Shown one piece after another: positions 20,360 through 40,700 of a stretch of 64,000 bases of DNA. Source of the stretch: Terriglobia bacterium (GTDB lineage: Bacteria; Acidobacteriota; Terriglobia; UBA7540); NCBI GenBank assembly GCA_035712365.1, contig DASTAW010000062.1, positions 1-64,000 of the forward strand, written 5' to 3'. The position numbers were made by a program, and so were the translations under genes. The first letter of the stretch is position 1; each line of letters starts with the position of its first letter. The notes under the pieces were generated by a model, which was not told where the DNA came from, searched no databases, and saw only the letters and a program-made list of their open reading frames with translations.

Positions 20360-21028
20360 TCAGGCAGAAGTTTTGTCGCCTTCCATGCTCAGCGCCACGC
20401 CGTTTGTCTTGAGATTCTTCTCGATCTGGGCCAGCACGCTGGACGGGCAGCCCTCCCACACTGCAACCATCTTGTTGCCTTGATAAGGCAAGTCCTTCAC
20501 GCCTTGCTCGCTTGAGAAGAATCCGCCCACAACCAGGTCCCGCAGGCGGTTGAAAAATGCCACGTAGTTCACATCCTCAGGCGCGGCCTTGTCGGGATAT
20601 GCGATGCGGTCCAGGATTTTTTTCTGCTCGGCCGGCGCGCAGCCAATGAAATCATGGCCGAATTGCCGGTTGCATTCCAAATCGAGCCAGGTGAGGCCTC
20701 CCAGGATTTCCGCTTTGAGCCTGCCGCCTCTGAAATCGAGCCAGTCATCGATGAACTCCGGAACGCCAGCCTGGGTGGCGCTGCCGCTTCGCTCGTCGGC
20801 GGGAATCATCAGGTCACTCAGCAGTTTGACGGTTTCCCATTCATGGTCGTTGAAGACTTTCCGCTGATAACCCGATGCGGCTTTGCCTGCCGCGCTCGCG
20901 GCGGTATTCTGAGGCGGCGCCGCGACGGCGCTCAGCGGGACCAACGCCGCCGCTGGAACAGCCGAGAAGACTTTCAGTATGTCGCGCCGTTTGATAGGTG
21001 TTCCGTTGTCGGCAGTGTTCTTTTTCAT
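20360..21028 (-). CDS. Gluconate 2-dehydrogenase subunit 3 family protein
   Basis: 222 residues with a twin-arginine signal (IKRRDILKVFSAVPAAALVPLSAVA) and the subunit-3 domain (FNDHEWETVKLLSDLMIPADERSGSATQAGVPEFIDDWL). In the family this small subunit is co-exported with the FAD-containing GMC large subunit of periplasmic sugar/alcohol dehydrogenases. The start at 21028 has AAGGAG seven bases upstream. The GMC gene lies upstream on the same strand, but a four-helix-bundle gene with inverted-repeat ends sits between them. Confidence 0.9.
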   Translation of the reverse strand: MKKNTADNGTPIKRRDILKVFSAVPAAALVPLSAVAAPPQNTAASAAGKAASGYQRKVFNDHEWETVKLLSDLMIPADERSGSATQAGVPEFIDDWLDFRGGRLKAEILGGLTWLDLECNRQFGHDFIGCAPAEQKKILDRIAYPDKAAPEDVNYVAFFNRLRDLVVGGFFSSEQGVKDLPYQGNKMVAVWEGCPSSVLAQIEKNLKTNGVALSMEGDKTSA

Positions 21029-21044
21029 GTCAACTCCTTGCATA

Positions 21045-21493
21045 GTAGGTGGCATATGGTAGACGGCATATGGGGTTGGAAGGCGGCCGCACTCATATTC
21101 ATCAGATCCTGATGGATCGGATCAGGCCTGTCAGCATCCGGCCGGCTTGGTCGATTCGCTCCGGAAGATGATCCGGCTCCATCTGAAGACCAAGGTCGTG
21201 ACAGAGAAGTGCGTAGTGCCTGAGCTCTTCGAGCGAACCCTGCGCAATATTGTAAAAACGCTTCTTGTCGGCCGCGCCTCTCCTTTTGAAACCTTCGGCA
21301 ATATTGGCTGGCACAGAGACTGCCGCCCGGCGCATCTGCGAAGTCAAACCGAATTTCTCCTCTGGCGGCAAGTGCGTTGTCCCTTTGTAAACATCCAACA
21401 CAATCTGGTGAGCCACCTGCCATACTTCGAGTTGCTCGAACCGCTCGATGCTCATGCTGCACTTCCAGCCCCCATCTGCCATCTACCACCTAC
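21045..21493. mobile_element. Candidate non-autonomous element: four-helix-bundle gene with imperfect terminal inverted repeats
   Basis: The left end (21045-21082) reads GTAGGTGGCATATGG...GGGTTGGAAG. The reverse complement of the right end (21462-21493) reads GTAGGTGGTAGATGG...GGGGCTGGAAG. They align over about 32 positions with one 6-base gap. The ends enclose a single small gene and lie between two genes that normally adjoin. No target-site duplication was identified. Mobility is inferred. Confidence 0.45.
21102..21455 (-). CDS. Four-helix-bundle protein (S23 / TIGR02436 family)
   Basis: 117 residues from MSIERFEQLEVWQVAHQIV. The signature of the 23S rRNA intervening-sequence/S23 family is present: FEQLEVWQ, FGLTSQMRRAAVSVPANIAEG and a C-terminal helical region. 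The family forms pentameric four-helix bundles related to diversity-generating retroelement Avd proteins, but its cellular role is unknown. Here it lies outside rRNA, inside a dehydrogenase operon and between imperfect inverted repeats. A frame extension to 21482 runs into the right inverted repeat and was not used. Confidence 0.88.
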   Translation of the reverse strand: MSIERFEQLEVWQVAHQIVLDVYKGTTHLPPEEKFGLTSQMRRAAVSVPANIAEGFKRRGAADKKRFYNIAQGSLEELRHYALLCHDLGLQMEPDHLPERIDQAGRMLTGLIRSIRI

Positions 21494-21520
21494 GACATGC
21501 CACGTACCACATGTCGCCTC

Positions 21521-23227
21521 TCACACATTGCGTTTCTTCATCTCGTCCACGATGTGCTCCGAAGTCCGCCAGGCCAGAGCCAGAATTGTGAGCGTCGGAT
21601 TCTTGTCGGCATTGCTGACGAACGGAGCGGCGTCGGTGATGAACAGGTTCCTGCAGTCCCACGCCTGGCAATAGGGATTCAGAGCTGAAGTGCTGCGGTC
21701 TGACCCCATCCTTGCTGTGCCCACTTCGTGGATGATTTCGCCGCCGCGCGAGATGCCCCAGTTTTCTTCGGCTCCGTACGTCCGCACAACTTCGCCGCCG
21801 GCGGTTTCAATAATCTCGCGGAAAGTTTCCCGCGCATGCCGGGCCTGCAGAATCTCATCCTGGGTCCACTTAAAGTGGAACTTCAGCACCGGGATGCCCC
21901 ATTCATCGACGACGTTCTTATCGATCTCGCACCAGCTATCGTCGTTGGGGATCATTTCGCCACGGCTGGAAAAACCGACAAACGCTCCGAACAGCTTCCT
22001 GCAGCCCTTTTTCAGCTCCTCGCCATAACCACCGCCGAGGAACCGTTCCGAATGGCCGAAGCTGCCGGCGCCAGGCATATCGCGCCCGCCTCCGAACTCG
22101 ATGTGGTAACCGCGGGAGAAAGGCATCTGGTGCTTGAACTGCTTCTCATAATTCCACCAGGGCATATAGAGGTGCATCCCGCCGGTGCCATCGTCATTGT
22201 GCGGCGGCAGGTCCATCAGCACGGGGAAGAACCCTACCGTACCATCTGCTCCGACGGTATCCATCAGGTAGCGACCCACCACTCCGGTGGAATTGGCCAG
22301 GCCGTCCGGATGCCGTGGGCTGCGGGAATTCAGCAGCAGCCGGCAGGTCTCGCAATTGCTGGCCGCCAGGACCACAACCTTGCCGCGCGTCTGCACTTCC
22401 TTGCGCGTTGTCCTGTCGATGTAGGAGACGCCGGTTGCCAGGCCGTCAGCTCCCGTCAGCACCTCGCGCACCATGGCGTTGCAGATGATGTCAAGGTTTC
22501 CCGTTTCCATGGCCGGCGGAATCAACACCGTTGGCGAGGAGAAGTTCGATGAAGTTGCGCAACTCCGTCCGCACTGAGAGCAGTAGTGGCAGGCGGGCCG
22601 GCCGTTGAGCGGCCGCGTCAGGATCGAGAGGCGTGAAGGTATGCAGGTTATATTGAGTTTCTGGCAAGACTTCTGGATGAGCAGCTCGTAGCAGCGAGGG
22701 GCTGGCGGCGGTTGGAACTTTCCGTCCGGCGCGTTTTCAACGTGTTCGATCGAGCCGTAAACACCGATTAACTCTTCCGTCTTGTCGTAATACGGCGCCA
22801 GCTCTTCATAGGTGATCGGCCAGTCAAAGCCCTTGCCGTCGCGCGAGTAGGGCTTGAAGTCGTATGGCCCGAAACGCAGCGAGATGCGGCCCCAGTGGTT
22901 GGTGCGCCCGCCAAGCATGCGCGAGCGGAACCAGGTCCAATCGGTTCCGGGCGCGTTGGTGTAAGGCTCGCCGGGTATCTGCCATCCACCTACCGCGGCG
23001 TCGAAATAGCCGAAAGTGGTGTTGGGCTTCACGGCGCCACGGTGCGGGGCCTGATAATCCCATTCAAACATCTTGGATTGCTTCGCGGTGTCATACCAGC
23101 CGCCTGCCTCGAGCATCAGCACCTTGGCTCCGGCCCTGGTCAGAACATAAGCCGCCATGCCGCCGCCGGCGCCTGATCCCACAATGATTGCGTCATAAAC
23201 TCGTGAAGGTTTTTTGATTTGTGCCAT
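21521..23227 (-). CDS. GMC family oxidoreductase (gluconate/glucose dehydrogenase-like large subunit)
   Basis: 568 residues. An N-terminal FAD-binding Rossmann motif (YDAIIVGSGAGGGMAAYVLTRAG), the GMC-type GGRTNHWGRISLRF, a four-cysteine cluster in CHYCSQCGRSC, and a C-terminal GMC_oxred_C end with the active-site HEVGTARMG and NLFITDAA are all present. It oxidises a sugar or alcohol, probably at the periplasmic face together with the Tat-exported small subunit. It has no signal peptide of its own, so hitch-hiker export is likely. ATG 23227 was preferred over 23242 and far-upstream codons because it starts three residues before the IKKPSRVYDAIIVG region. Confidence 0.93.
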   Translation of the reverse strand: MAQIKKPSRVYDAIIVGSGAGGGMAAYVLTRAGAKVLMLEAGGWYDTAKQSKMFEWDYQAPHRGAVKPNTTFGYFDAAVGGWQIPGEPYTNAPGTDWTWFRSRMLGGRTNHWGRISLRFGPYDFKPYSRDGKGFDWPITYEELAPYYDKTEELIGVYGSIEHVENAPDGKFQPPPAPRCYELLIQKSCQKLNITCIPSRLSILTRPLNGRPACHYCSQCGRSCATSSNFSSPTVLIPPAMETGNLDIICNAMVREVLTGADGLATGVSYIDRTTRKEVQTRGKVVVLAASNCETCRLLLNSRSPRHPDGLANSTGVVGRYLMDTVGADGTVGFFPVLMDLPPHNDDGTGGMHLYMPWWNYEKQFKHQMPFSRGYHIEFGGGRDMPGAGSFGHSERFLGGGYGEELKKGCRKLFGAFVGFSSRGEMIPNDDSWCEIDKNVVDEWGIPVLKFHFKWTQDEILQARHARETFREIIETAGGEVVRTYGAEENWGISRGGEIIHEVGTARMGSDRSTSALNPYCQAWDCRNLFITDAAPFVSNADKNPTLTILALAWRTSEHIVDEMKKRNV

Positions 23228-37728: not shown

Positions 37729-40700
37729 TTACCACAACAGCTTCAGCCCGAACTGGATTTGCCTCGCGCTGGTGGATGTGCTGGTGATGACGCCCGCCGT
37801 TGTTGCCGGAACGCCCGCCGGCTGGGTGAAGACGATCAGGTTGGGGGTGTTAAAATTCGGCCGGTTAAGGACATTGAAGAACTCGGCCCGCAGCTCGATT
37901 TTCAGGCTTTCCGTCAGGGACGTGTCCTTCATGAGGGAGGAGTCAAAAGTTTCGAGGCCTGGTCCGATGAATGTGTCTCGTCCGACATTGCCATAAGTTC
38001 CGTTGGGCGGAACGATGAAGGCGTTGGGACCAAAGTATCGGTTCGGCCCCCCCAGGACCACAGGTCCGGCGAACGCGGGATTAAACGAGGGCCGAACGGA
38101 ATTCCGACTGTCCCCGTTGTTCGAGGGATTGAAACTCATCTGCGGCGTGAAAGGAAAGCCAGATCGCGCTGTTATGATGGCATCCAGCGTCCAGCCGCTT
38201 ACCAGCTTCCCCTTCCACCCCGTCTCCCCGCCGAGAAACCGGCGGCTCTCCCCGAACGGAAGTTGATAACTGCCGCTGACCACCGCAATGTGTCGAACGT
38301 CGAAAGTGGAAAGGCCGTAGTCCATGGCCAGGTTTTGGGGATTCATGGCGAGCCCGGGAGCGTTTGTGGCGGCACTGGGATTCAGCGTGTCGCCATTATC
38401 GAGGCTCTTTGACCACGTATAGGCTCCGCGGAATTCAAGCTCGCGAGAAAACCGCTGGCGGATTTCAGCCTGCAGCGCGTTATACGAACTGACGCCCTCG
38501 GAAAACCACGTCCACGTATTCGCCAGTTCCGGGTTGGCCAGTGGAGCGCCCCGCGGCGTGTAAATGGTCCCTGCAGGCAATGTTGCCGGGCAGGGAATCG
38601 CTGGGCACGTAACCGGGACCGGGATGTTAGCGTCAAGGCTGACGATCTCATGATAGCCGTGCGACCCCACGTAGCTTGCGCGTACGACAGTGTTGCGGGC
38701 GAGGGCGTGTTCAATTGCGAGGCTGTAGGCTTCGATCATGGGTGTTTGCAGGCTGGGCTGTGCGCCTGCCGGTTCAACCAGGGCCGCGACGGGCAGCGGG
38801 CCGCCGGGGACCAGCGGAAACGACCCCAGAGATACATTCTTCATGTGGAGGGTCGTGTTGAATGGAGCATTTTGGTCCAGCCGATAGCTCAAAGCGTCCT
38901 GAAGATGGGCGTACAATCCGAAACCGGCGCGGACAACCGTTTTCCCGTCGCCGAATGGGTCCCAGGCAAGCCCGACGCGCGGTTCCGGGAGGAACCTGGC
39001 ACGGTTGACGGTGAAGACGGACTTTGCGACGCGGGGGCTGGTTTCGATGACTCCCTGGGAGTCGAAAACGAAGTTTGCGGCCCGGTCTCTGGCTTCGTTC
39101 CAGCCGTTCGTGAATTCGTCCCGGAACCCCAGCGAGACAGTCAGGTTCCGCCGGAGCCGCAGGTTGTCCTGCACGTACCACGCGCCTTCCAGCGACCGCC
39201 AGGCCATCGCTGTCGGGGACGGGACAGCAACGAAGGTCGAAACGTTTCCCTGCAGAAAATCCTGCAAGCTTGAAAACGACGCCTGGCCGTACTGGGAAAG
39301 CGCCAGTCTGTCGTTCGACTGGATCTGCTGGAACCAGGCGCCAGCGGTCATCTGGTGGGGCCCTTTGTGAACGGCCAACCGGTCTTCGTAGGTGAACAGG
39401 TTCCGGTTGATAAACAAGTTGCTTCCGATATTGCTTCCCGCCTGGCTGATCTGGGTTGCGGCATTGGGCGACGCGCCGCCCCCGATGACGACTGCCCCAA
39501 TGGGCCTGCCCTGAATGAAGCCGGGCAGATCGACGGCTGACTTTCCCGTAAAAAAGTAAGCGGCGCGGGAAAAGCCAATACGTGCGACGTTCAACGCCGT
39601 GGGCGAAATCAGATGAGTCTCTTCCAGGCTTGCGACCTGCTCCCGCAGGCTCTCAACGTCCACGCTGAGCGGATTGGCGCTGGGGGTAAAATCGTCGCTA
39701 TCATCGATGGTGTAGATGGCGCTCAGAGAATCCTTGACGGAAAACTGGCGGTCAAGTCTCGTCGTGCCGAAATCCTCCCGGATGGTTTGGAGAGGATGGT
39801 TGAATGCCTCCGCAATTCCACCGCCCAGTTCGGGACCATTCGCTTGCGGCCAGAGTGAAAGCAAAGGCGCTGCTTCCGGCGCGACCCCAACGTAAACCAG
39901 TGTGCCGTCTGACCCGGGCAGGTAGCCTTGGCGTGCCCCCCCGTCCGGGACAAGTCCCACGCTGCTGAGCCGCAGATGCTGGCGGTAGCCTTCGTAGTTG
40001 CCAAAAATGAAGGTTTTGTTCTTCTGGATGGGGCCGCCGACCGCTCCGCCGAACTGGTTTCTCTGAAAAGAAGGTTTGGATCCGTGATCGAAAAAGCTCC
40101 GGGCATCCAGATCGCCGTTTCTCAAAAACTCGAAAACCGTTCCGTGCCATTGATTGGTTCCCGAGTCCGTAAGGATGCTTACCTGCGCTCCTGGCCTCTT
40201 TCCGTATTCGGGGCCATAGACGCCCGTGGCAACATTGAACTCCCGGATGGCATCGACACCCAGCAACTGTCCGCTGGTTGCGGCTGGCTGCATGTTGATC
40301 TCGGCCGCGCCGGTGTATTCAACGCCGTTCAGAAGGAACAGGTTTTCCTGGGGCCTGCGGCCGAGCACCGCGAACATGTTCCCCACGGCCGAATTCGAAC
40401 CTCCAACGCCACCGCGCTTTTCGGACGTATAGTCCACAATGCCGGGATTCAGCGTGAGCAGTTCGTCATAACTGCGGCCGTTGAGGGGCAGGTCCTTGAT
40501 CTCTCGGGTGCCCACCATGCCCGCATTCGAGTTCGCGGACAAGTTGACCAGGGGGGCCTGGCCTTGGATGGTGAGTTGCTGGCGGAATTCGCCCAGCCGG
40601 AGAGAAAAATTCATCACCGTCTGTTCCGCCGCGGCCAGCACAATCCCCGTGTGGACCGCAGTCCGAAAGCCCTCCTTCCGGACAGTCACCTGATATTGTC

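Follow-up and report, generated by a model that had tools for sequence, protein, structure and literature searches.

Results

An S23 gene between inverted heptamer arms at a dehydrogenase operon junction

In the 64,000-nucleotide stretch of Terriglobia bacterium contig DASTAW010000062.1 analysed here (hereafter the window), a small gene of the S23, or four-helix-bundle, family separates the genes for a GMC oxidoreductase and a gluconate 2-dehydrogenase subunit 3, and is itself bounded by inverted arrays of 7-bp repeats (heptamers). Gene and arrays together are probably one copy of a small mobile unit. The features are listed in the order in which the minus strand is read, from GMC oxidoreductase through S23 to subunit 3:

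21521..23227, minus strand: GMC oxidoreductase, upstream operon neighbour (PF05199/PF00732; matches in 38 of 41 genomes searched)
21465..21510, minus strand: arm upstream of the S23 gene, an imperfect heptamer array with RTGGYAK units on the minus (sense) strand (period-7 scan; arm-class profile statistics)
21102..21455, minus strand: S23 / four-helix-bundle gene, 117 aa (PF05635 and TIGR02436 above cut-off; open reading frame (ORF) list; one of nine copies in the genome)
21045..21082, minus strand: arm downstream of the S23 gene, an inverted degenerate copy of the heptamer array (inverted alignment; folding)
20360..21028, minus strand: gluconate 2-dehydrogenase subunit 3, downstream operon neighbour (PF13618; directly adjoins GMC in genome G002)

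The first-pass annotation had described an S23-type gene of 117 codons parting the two dehydrogenase genes, and profile searches bear this out. The protein, counted from the ATG at 21455 (an alternative in-frame ATG lies upstream at 21482), scores 114.6 bits against PF05635 (cut-off 33.8) and 112.7 bits against TIGR02436 (cut-off 24), the downstream neighbour matches PF13618, and no gene intervenes between the orthologous neighbours in G002. S23 is the sole product of the unit, with no Y1 transposase encoded between the repeats. As originally proposed, positions 21045-21082 and the reverse complement of 21462-21493 both start with GTAGGTGG and end with TGGAAG; these limits are correct as far as they go, and the right-hand arm continues beyond 21493, its array reaching 21510. 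The 'degenerate GTGGTAGATGG-like units' of the same annotation are genuine repeats, more exactly described as the 7-bp units given above. The upstream arm starts approximately 10 nt past the GMC stop codon, and the downstream arm ends approximately 16 nt ahead of the subunit-3 start codon. Inverted alignment of the arms scores 20 (mean 9.2 and maximum 18 in 2000 shuffles), a value reached at none of 3000 random places with equal spacing. Folding of the sense strand gave z = -3.67; the ORF is thus enclosed by stem-forming complementary ends. The array at 21465-21510 is the only one above threshold at period 7 in the window, and shuffled sequence yielded none; a second, weak period-7 stretch lies at 38292-38313 (GTCGAACGTCGAAAGTGGAAAG, score 11).

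Heptamer arms accompany S23 genes across phyla

Period-7 arrays lay near every one of the eight S23 genes of the source genome whose flanks were examined, each with its own heptamer (GAGTGAC, TAGCGAA, GTGGTAG/ATGGCAT, GTAGGCA, TTTGAAT, TTGAGAT-like, TGAAGGA and TTATGAA). Thus the ends first predicted to recur near other S23 copies do so as an architecture, comprising the 7-bp period, the inversion and a YAG-like core, and not as sequences: the copies lack the shared terminal inverted repeat by which insertion sequences (ISs) and miniature inverted-repeat transposable elements are classically defined. Arrays were present at 27 of 30 S23 loci in relatives (1 of 21 control loci), at 60 of 80 loci of a sample spanning many phyla, with one Methanophagales archaeon among them (9 of 80 at 1 kb distance), at 36/40 in a fresh locus set and at 19/20 in gammaproteobacteria, while other periods, except the multiple 14, gave 0-11 in the same scans. 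These locus sets overlap slightly, the genomes were sampled in stretches and many are drafts, and the array thresholds, which were chosen in this analysis, were applied identically to controls. Residence in rRNA genes was considered as an explanation for array-poor loci, and rejected as none of 16 such loci had an Rfam match.

The left arm of an element resembles the reverse complement of its own right arm (5.26 on a 7-point scale) far more than it does the arms of other elements (3.36), and the two arms of one element compared in direct orientation score only 3.05. Although the heptamer word varies among elements, phase-aligned heptamers share a consensus near T-Y-A-G-K-G-A, with 3.03 bits of information (at most 2.32 in 100 column-permuted controls). 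At the orthologous sites L002/L062/L063/L056 and L057/L060, both arms have drifted with period and pairing retained. In the near-identical pairs L169/L174 and L170/L176, the arrays differ in length by whole heptamers. In L169 (2936-2977), the left array closes with AGGAGTC, a possible ribosome-binding site for S23 located approximately 8 nt upstream of its ATG.

Protein subfamily predicts heptamer at unlinked loci

We compared 160 elements and removed all pairs with any flank homology, leaving 12,539 pairs in which mean heptamer similarity rose with S23 identity, from 0.58 at 35-45% through 0.70 at 55-65% to 0.87 at 65-90%; in a Mantel test over all pairs, none of 500 permutations reached the observed value. 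For example, cyanobacterial, acidobacterial and gammaproteobacterial groups whose S23 proteins are 64-72% identical all carry AGGAGTC/AGAAGTC/AGAATTC arrays, at unrelated loci. The heptamers of a Trichormus plasmid unit are AGGAGTC/AGAATTC, and that of a Rhizobiales unit is GTGAATG. No other observation speaks as strongly as this correlation for gene and arms being one unit, and for an S23 protein that may recognise its own heptamer. One orthologous operon junction (L001/L059) holds unrelated S23 genes with different heptamers in two genera. The solved S23 relatives 2gsc and 2rld each comprise five chains, which would suit an oligomer sitting on a repeat array.

Empty sites, relocation and insertion sequence contexts

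S23 copy number ranges from 0 to 23 inside one family. At the GMC/subunit-3 junction, the orthologous empty site sought from the outset is present in G002, which is of the same genus (GMC 95% identical) and has a clean 45-bp spacer. In a genome of another genus (G022), the junction is filled by an S23 of 73% identity whose heptamer type matches that of the unit described here. Hairpins without S23 stand there in G018, where the heptamer type again matches, and in G017 and G007, where the heptamers differ. Occupation of the same place in many distant relatives would have spoken against a mobile unit; of 22 further GMC/subunit-3 loci inspected, only one had S23 there. Among Nostocales plasmids, sites with and without the unit were likewise compared (best pair 97% identical). 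In a Trichormus plasmid, the empty sequence AAAAAGTAATTAACAAATAAATatg becomes AAAAAGTAATAAATCAGAATTC...CTGAGTTCTTCTTTGTAATTAACAAATAAATatg when filled, with a 4-5 bp duplication, GTAA(T); a second plasmid case repeats ATTCTA (5-6 bp), a third approximately 10 bp, and further cases are not clear-cut. The target duplications seen are short, and no uniform length was found among them. An inverted copy of the host left flank within the right arm was suspected in two plasmid cases, and not established. Three elements (L169, L322 and L323) that are approximately 80% identical from arm to arm occupy three unrelated junctions. The empty sites, these relocated elements and the joint travel of gene and repeat agree with the first-pass proposal that the repeats bound a unit whose only product is S23.

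Some S23 genes reside within or beside insertion sequences. In Calothrix PCC 7103, an ISL3-type IS of 2.6 kb (L223-L229), with five copies 99.5-99.9% identical and two more approximately 83% identical, contains S23 and heptamer arrays just inside its terminal repeats; it has 94-bp inverted ends and apparent 8-bp target duplications. On a Nostoc HK-01 plasmid (L326, 1-1842), S23 directly follows an IS204/IS1001-type transposase, with heptamer arrays present.

Placement, polarity and S23-free arrays

Simple ORF calls, with both neighbours at least 150 aa long, placed 60 elements in sense orientation between co-directional genes and 5 in antisense; by the same calls, arrays usually start within approximately 10 nt of the upstream stop codon and end within approximately 25 nt of the next start codon. 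All six S23 loci in RNA-gene contexts are likewise sense: five gammaproteobacterial units (L274, L276, L277, L278 and L280) adjoin tRNA genes in the orientation of the tRNAs, and one (L279) lies within a 23S rRNA gene, with arms of ACAGAAG type. The unit thus extends beyond protein operons and is not set apart from rRNA inserts, L279 having the same kind of heptamer arms. The tRNA-adjoining units may affect tRNA processing.

Heptamer arrays also occur without S23. Among 31 genomes sampled by 20-kb stretches, the density of solo period-7 arrays correlated with that of S23 genes (rho 0.69, p 2e-5, kinship among genomes ignored; -0.16 for other periods). S23-free operon arrays of the YAG-sense type lay nearer the stop codon in 11 of 17 cases, and those of the opposite type nearer the start codon in 11 of 12 (Fisher p 0.003). 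They therefore keep the polarity of S23 elements, in agreement with the published over-representation of TAACTGA arrays just before start codons (PMC4679880). S23 was present in 31 of 143 gammaproteobacteria. The array (GGGAATC)3 occurred in one of 369 gammaproteobacteria, whose S23 gene (L257), between accB-like and accC-like genes, is flanked by GGGAATC units; this gene is apparently frameshifted, its frame seeming broken past domain position 64. The reversed control word led to a second gammaproteobacterial genome, in which the S23 gene has CTGAGGG/CCAAGGG arms.

Discussion

The architecture, cognate pairing, empty sites, relocation, sense orientation and numerical link between arrays and S23 genes observed here are brought together if the window feature is a copy of a widespread small mobile unit, a gene with its cognate heptamer, of which the 23S rRNA intervening sequence is one case; we assign this reading a probability of roughly 0.7. 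The unit would comprise a left heptamer array, the S23 gene and an inverted heptamer array, with protein and heptamer inherited and transferred jointly as a cognate pair. It would insert on the sense strand at junctions of co-transcribed genes, mostly within approximately 10 nt of the stop codon, with tRNA operons and 23S rRNA genes as further targets. Once transcribed, the arms would pair into a long stem around the S23 message, which RNase III would cut, sparing the host RNAs; for mRNA copies, this step is proposed by analogy to 23S rRNA intervening sequences. Mechanistically, the best support is for a guest on the sense strand of co-transcribed units, with arms that form a stem in RNA. S23-free arrays in S23-rich genomes would be derivatives or footprints of the same process, and S23 itself may bind the heptamer and may drive movement or array growth. 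To this extent, the mobile-unit interpretation of the first-pass annotation is partly supported.

Several observations count against this reading. The target duplications are short, unequal and blurred by divergence, and one insertion site, common to L002/L062/L063/L056, is old and vertically kept. The GMC site is also occupied by the 73% identical S23 of another genus. In the broad sample, clear arrays are missing from as many as a quarter of the S23 loci, and many solo arrays have no inverted partner. The correlation between array and S23 densities comes from non-independent genomes, their phylogeny ignored. Finally, no catalytic motif was recognised in S23.

A known enzyme, such as a Y1/REP-type transposase, a reverse transcriptase or an IS, might instead move the unit in trans, with S23 as an accessory. 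We regard this as unlikely, if the most credible of the alternatives. Across genomes, Y1_Tnp density correlates only moderately with S23 density (rho 0.50, p 8e-4). G022, with 23 S23 genes, and G006, with 19, have few Y1 genes, and G003 and G008, with two S23 genes each, have none. Because RVT_1 is missing from several S23-rich genomes (G022, G005, G012 and G000), movement needs no reverse transcriptase, and its requirement in trans is rejected. The Calothrix IS demonstrates that an IS can carry S23 with its arrays, but the ordinary unit has no IS ends, and ISL3 as a general mover is rejected, being confined to the Calothrix copies.

Alternatively, arrays and hairpins might arise on their own, through replication slippage with hairpin correction or the like, and S23 might be a guest that homes into hairpin loops, as into 23S rRNA helices. 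This would account for the S23-free hairpins at the GMC/subunit-3 junction in G007, G017 and G018, for solo hairpins at one and the same plasmid junction (L175, L178), for the great excess of solo arrays over S23 genes, and for single-heptamer changes in repeat number between near-identical elements. It sits poorly with the retention of a heptamer by S23 subfamilies at unrelated loci in different phyla, with the relocation of whole elements from arm to arm, with the lack of arrays in 180 kb of sampled genomes without S23, and with three plasmid pairs in which the precise empty site is free of any heptamer; we judge it slightly less probable than an enzyme acting in trans. That the unit is immobile, a conserved regulatory hairpin plus chaperone-like protein maintained by selection for transcript processing in operons and made patchy by loss, would fit the sense orientation, the stop-start placement and the prolonged occupation of one site in four genomes, where the two arms have changed jointly, but is very improbable given the range of copy number inside one family, near-identical plasmids that differ in having the unit, unrelated subfamilies with different heptamers at the L001/L059 junction, and the relocation indicated by L169/L322/L323.

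The mobile unit has partial counterparts among known systems. In the Coxiella burnetii report (PMC4990558), the 23S rRNA intervening sequence is an S23 ORF between complementary stem-forming ends, excised by RNase III, with tandem GACAGAT heptamers of strain-variable number just upstream of the ORF. The 23S-resident L279 likewise has heptamer arms. The window unit differs in lying between protein genes, outside 23S rRNA genes, and the passages of that report consulted here do not describe inverted heptamer arms, cognate pairing or spread to mRNA and tRNA operons. Dispersed heptamer arrays, known as TAACTGA in Beggiatoaceae and cyanobacteria (PMC4679880), and as GGGAATC in Xanthomonas and GGGGA(C/T)T in Nostoc (PMC4692102), are likewise intergenic 7-bp arrays, often in convergent pairs and often right before start codons; the window unit is intergenic with tandem 7-bp repeats, and S23 genes are bordered by these heptamer types. 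No transfer mechanism was evident for TAACTGA arrays (PMC4679880), the GGGAATC and GGGGA(C/T)T repeats as a rule did not accompany mobile elements (PMC4692102), and neither paper mentions S23. In the open-access literature, to which our search was confined, subscription papers lying outside it, no link of PF05635/S23 with heptamers was found beyond the Coxiella note.

The window S23 belongs to the fold family of Avd, from diversity-generating retroelements, but its match to the Avd model is weak (25.4 bits, cut-off 80) and its source genome (G000) has no RVT_1. Systems of repetitive extragenic palindromes (REPs) and REP-associated tyrosine transposases likewise pair a one-gene unit bearing inverted repeats with many dispersed gene-free copies. 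They differ in that S23 is not a Y1 transposase and that the ends of S23 units are tandem heptamers varying by element. The short tandemly repeated repetitive (STRR) sequences of cyanobacteria are further dispersed heptamer arrays.

More broadly, S23 genes occur in many bacterial genomes and, to our knowledge, have had no assigned function so far; the label selfish has for decades been applied to rRNA intervening sequences with no mechanism given; and the heptamer arrays of cyanobacteria, Beggiatoaceae and Xanthomonas had been reported as unexplained. One architecture now joins all three. We propose tentatively, with rather less than even confidence, that a small protein of non-enzymatic appearance recognises and spreads a heptamer word of its own, and perhaps writes it, subfamily and heptamer co-evolving across phyla, in a separate class of mobile element of which rRNA intervening sequences and orphan arrays are by-products. 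If each S23 recognises its own heptamer, then these pairs would constitute a readable code from protein to word, and small elements would have a new mode of life within operons.
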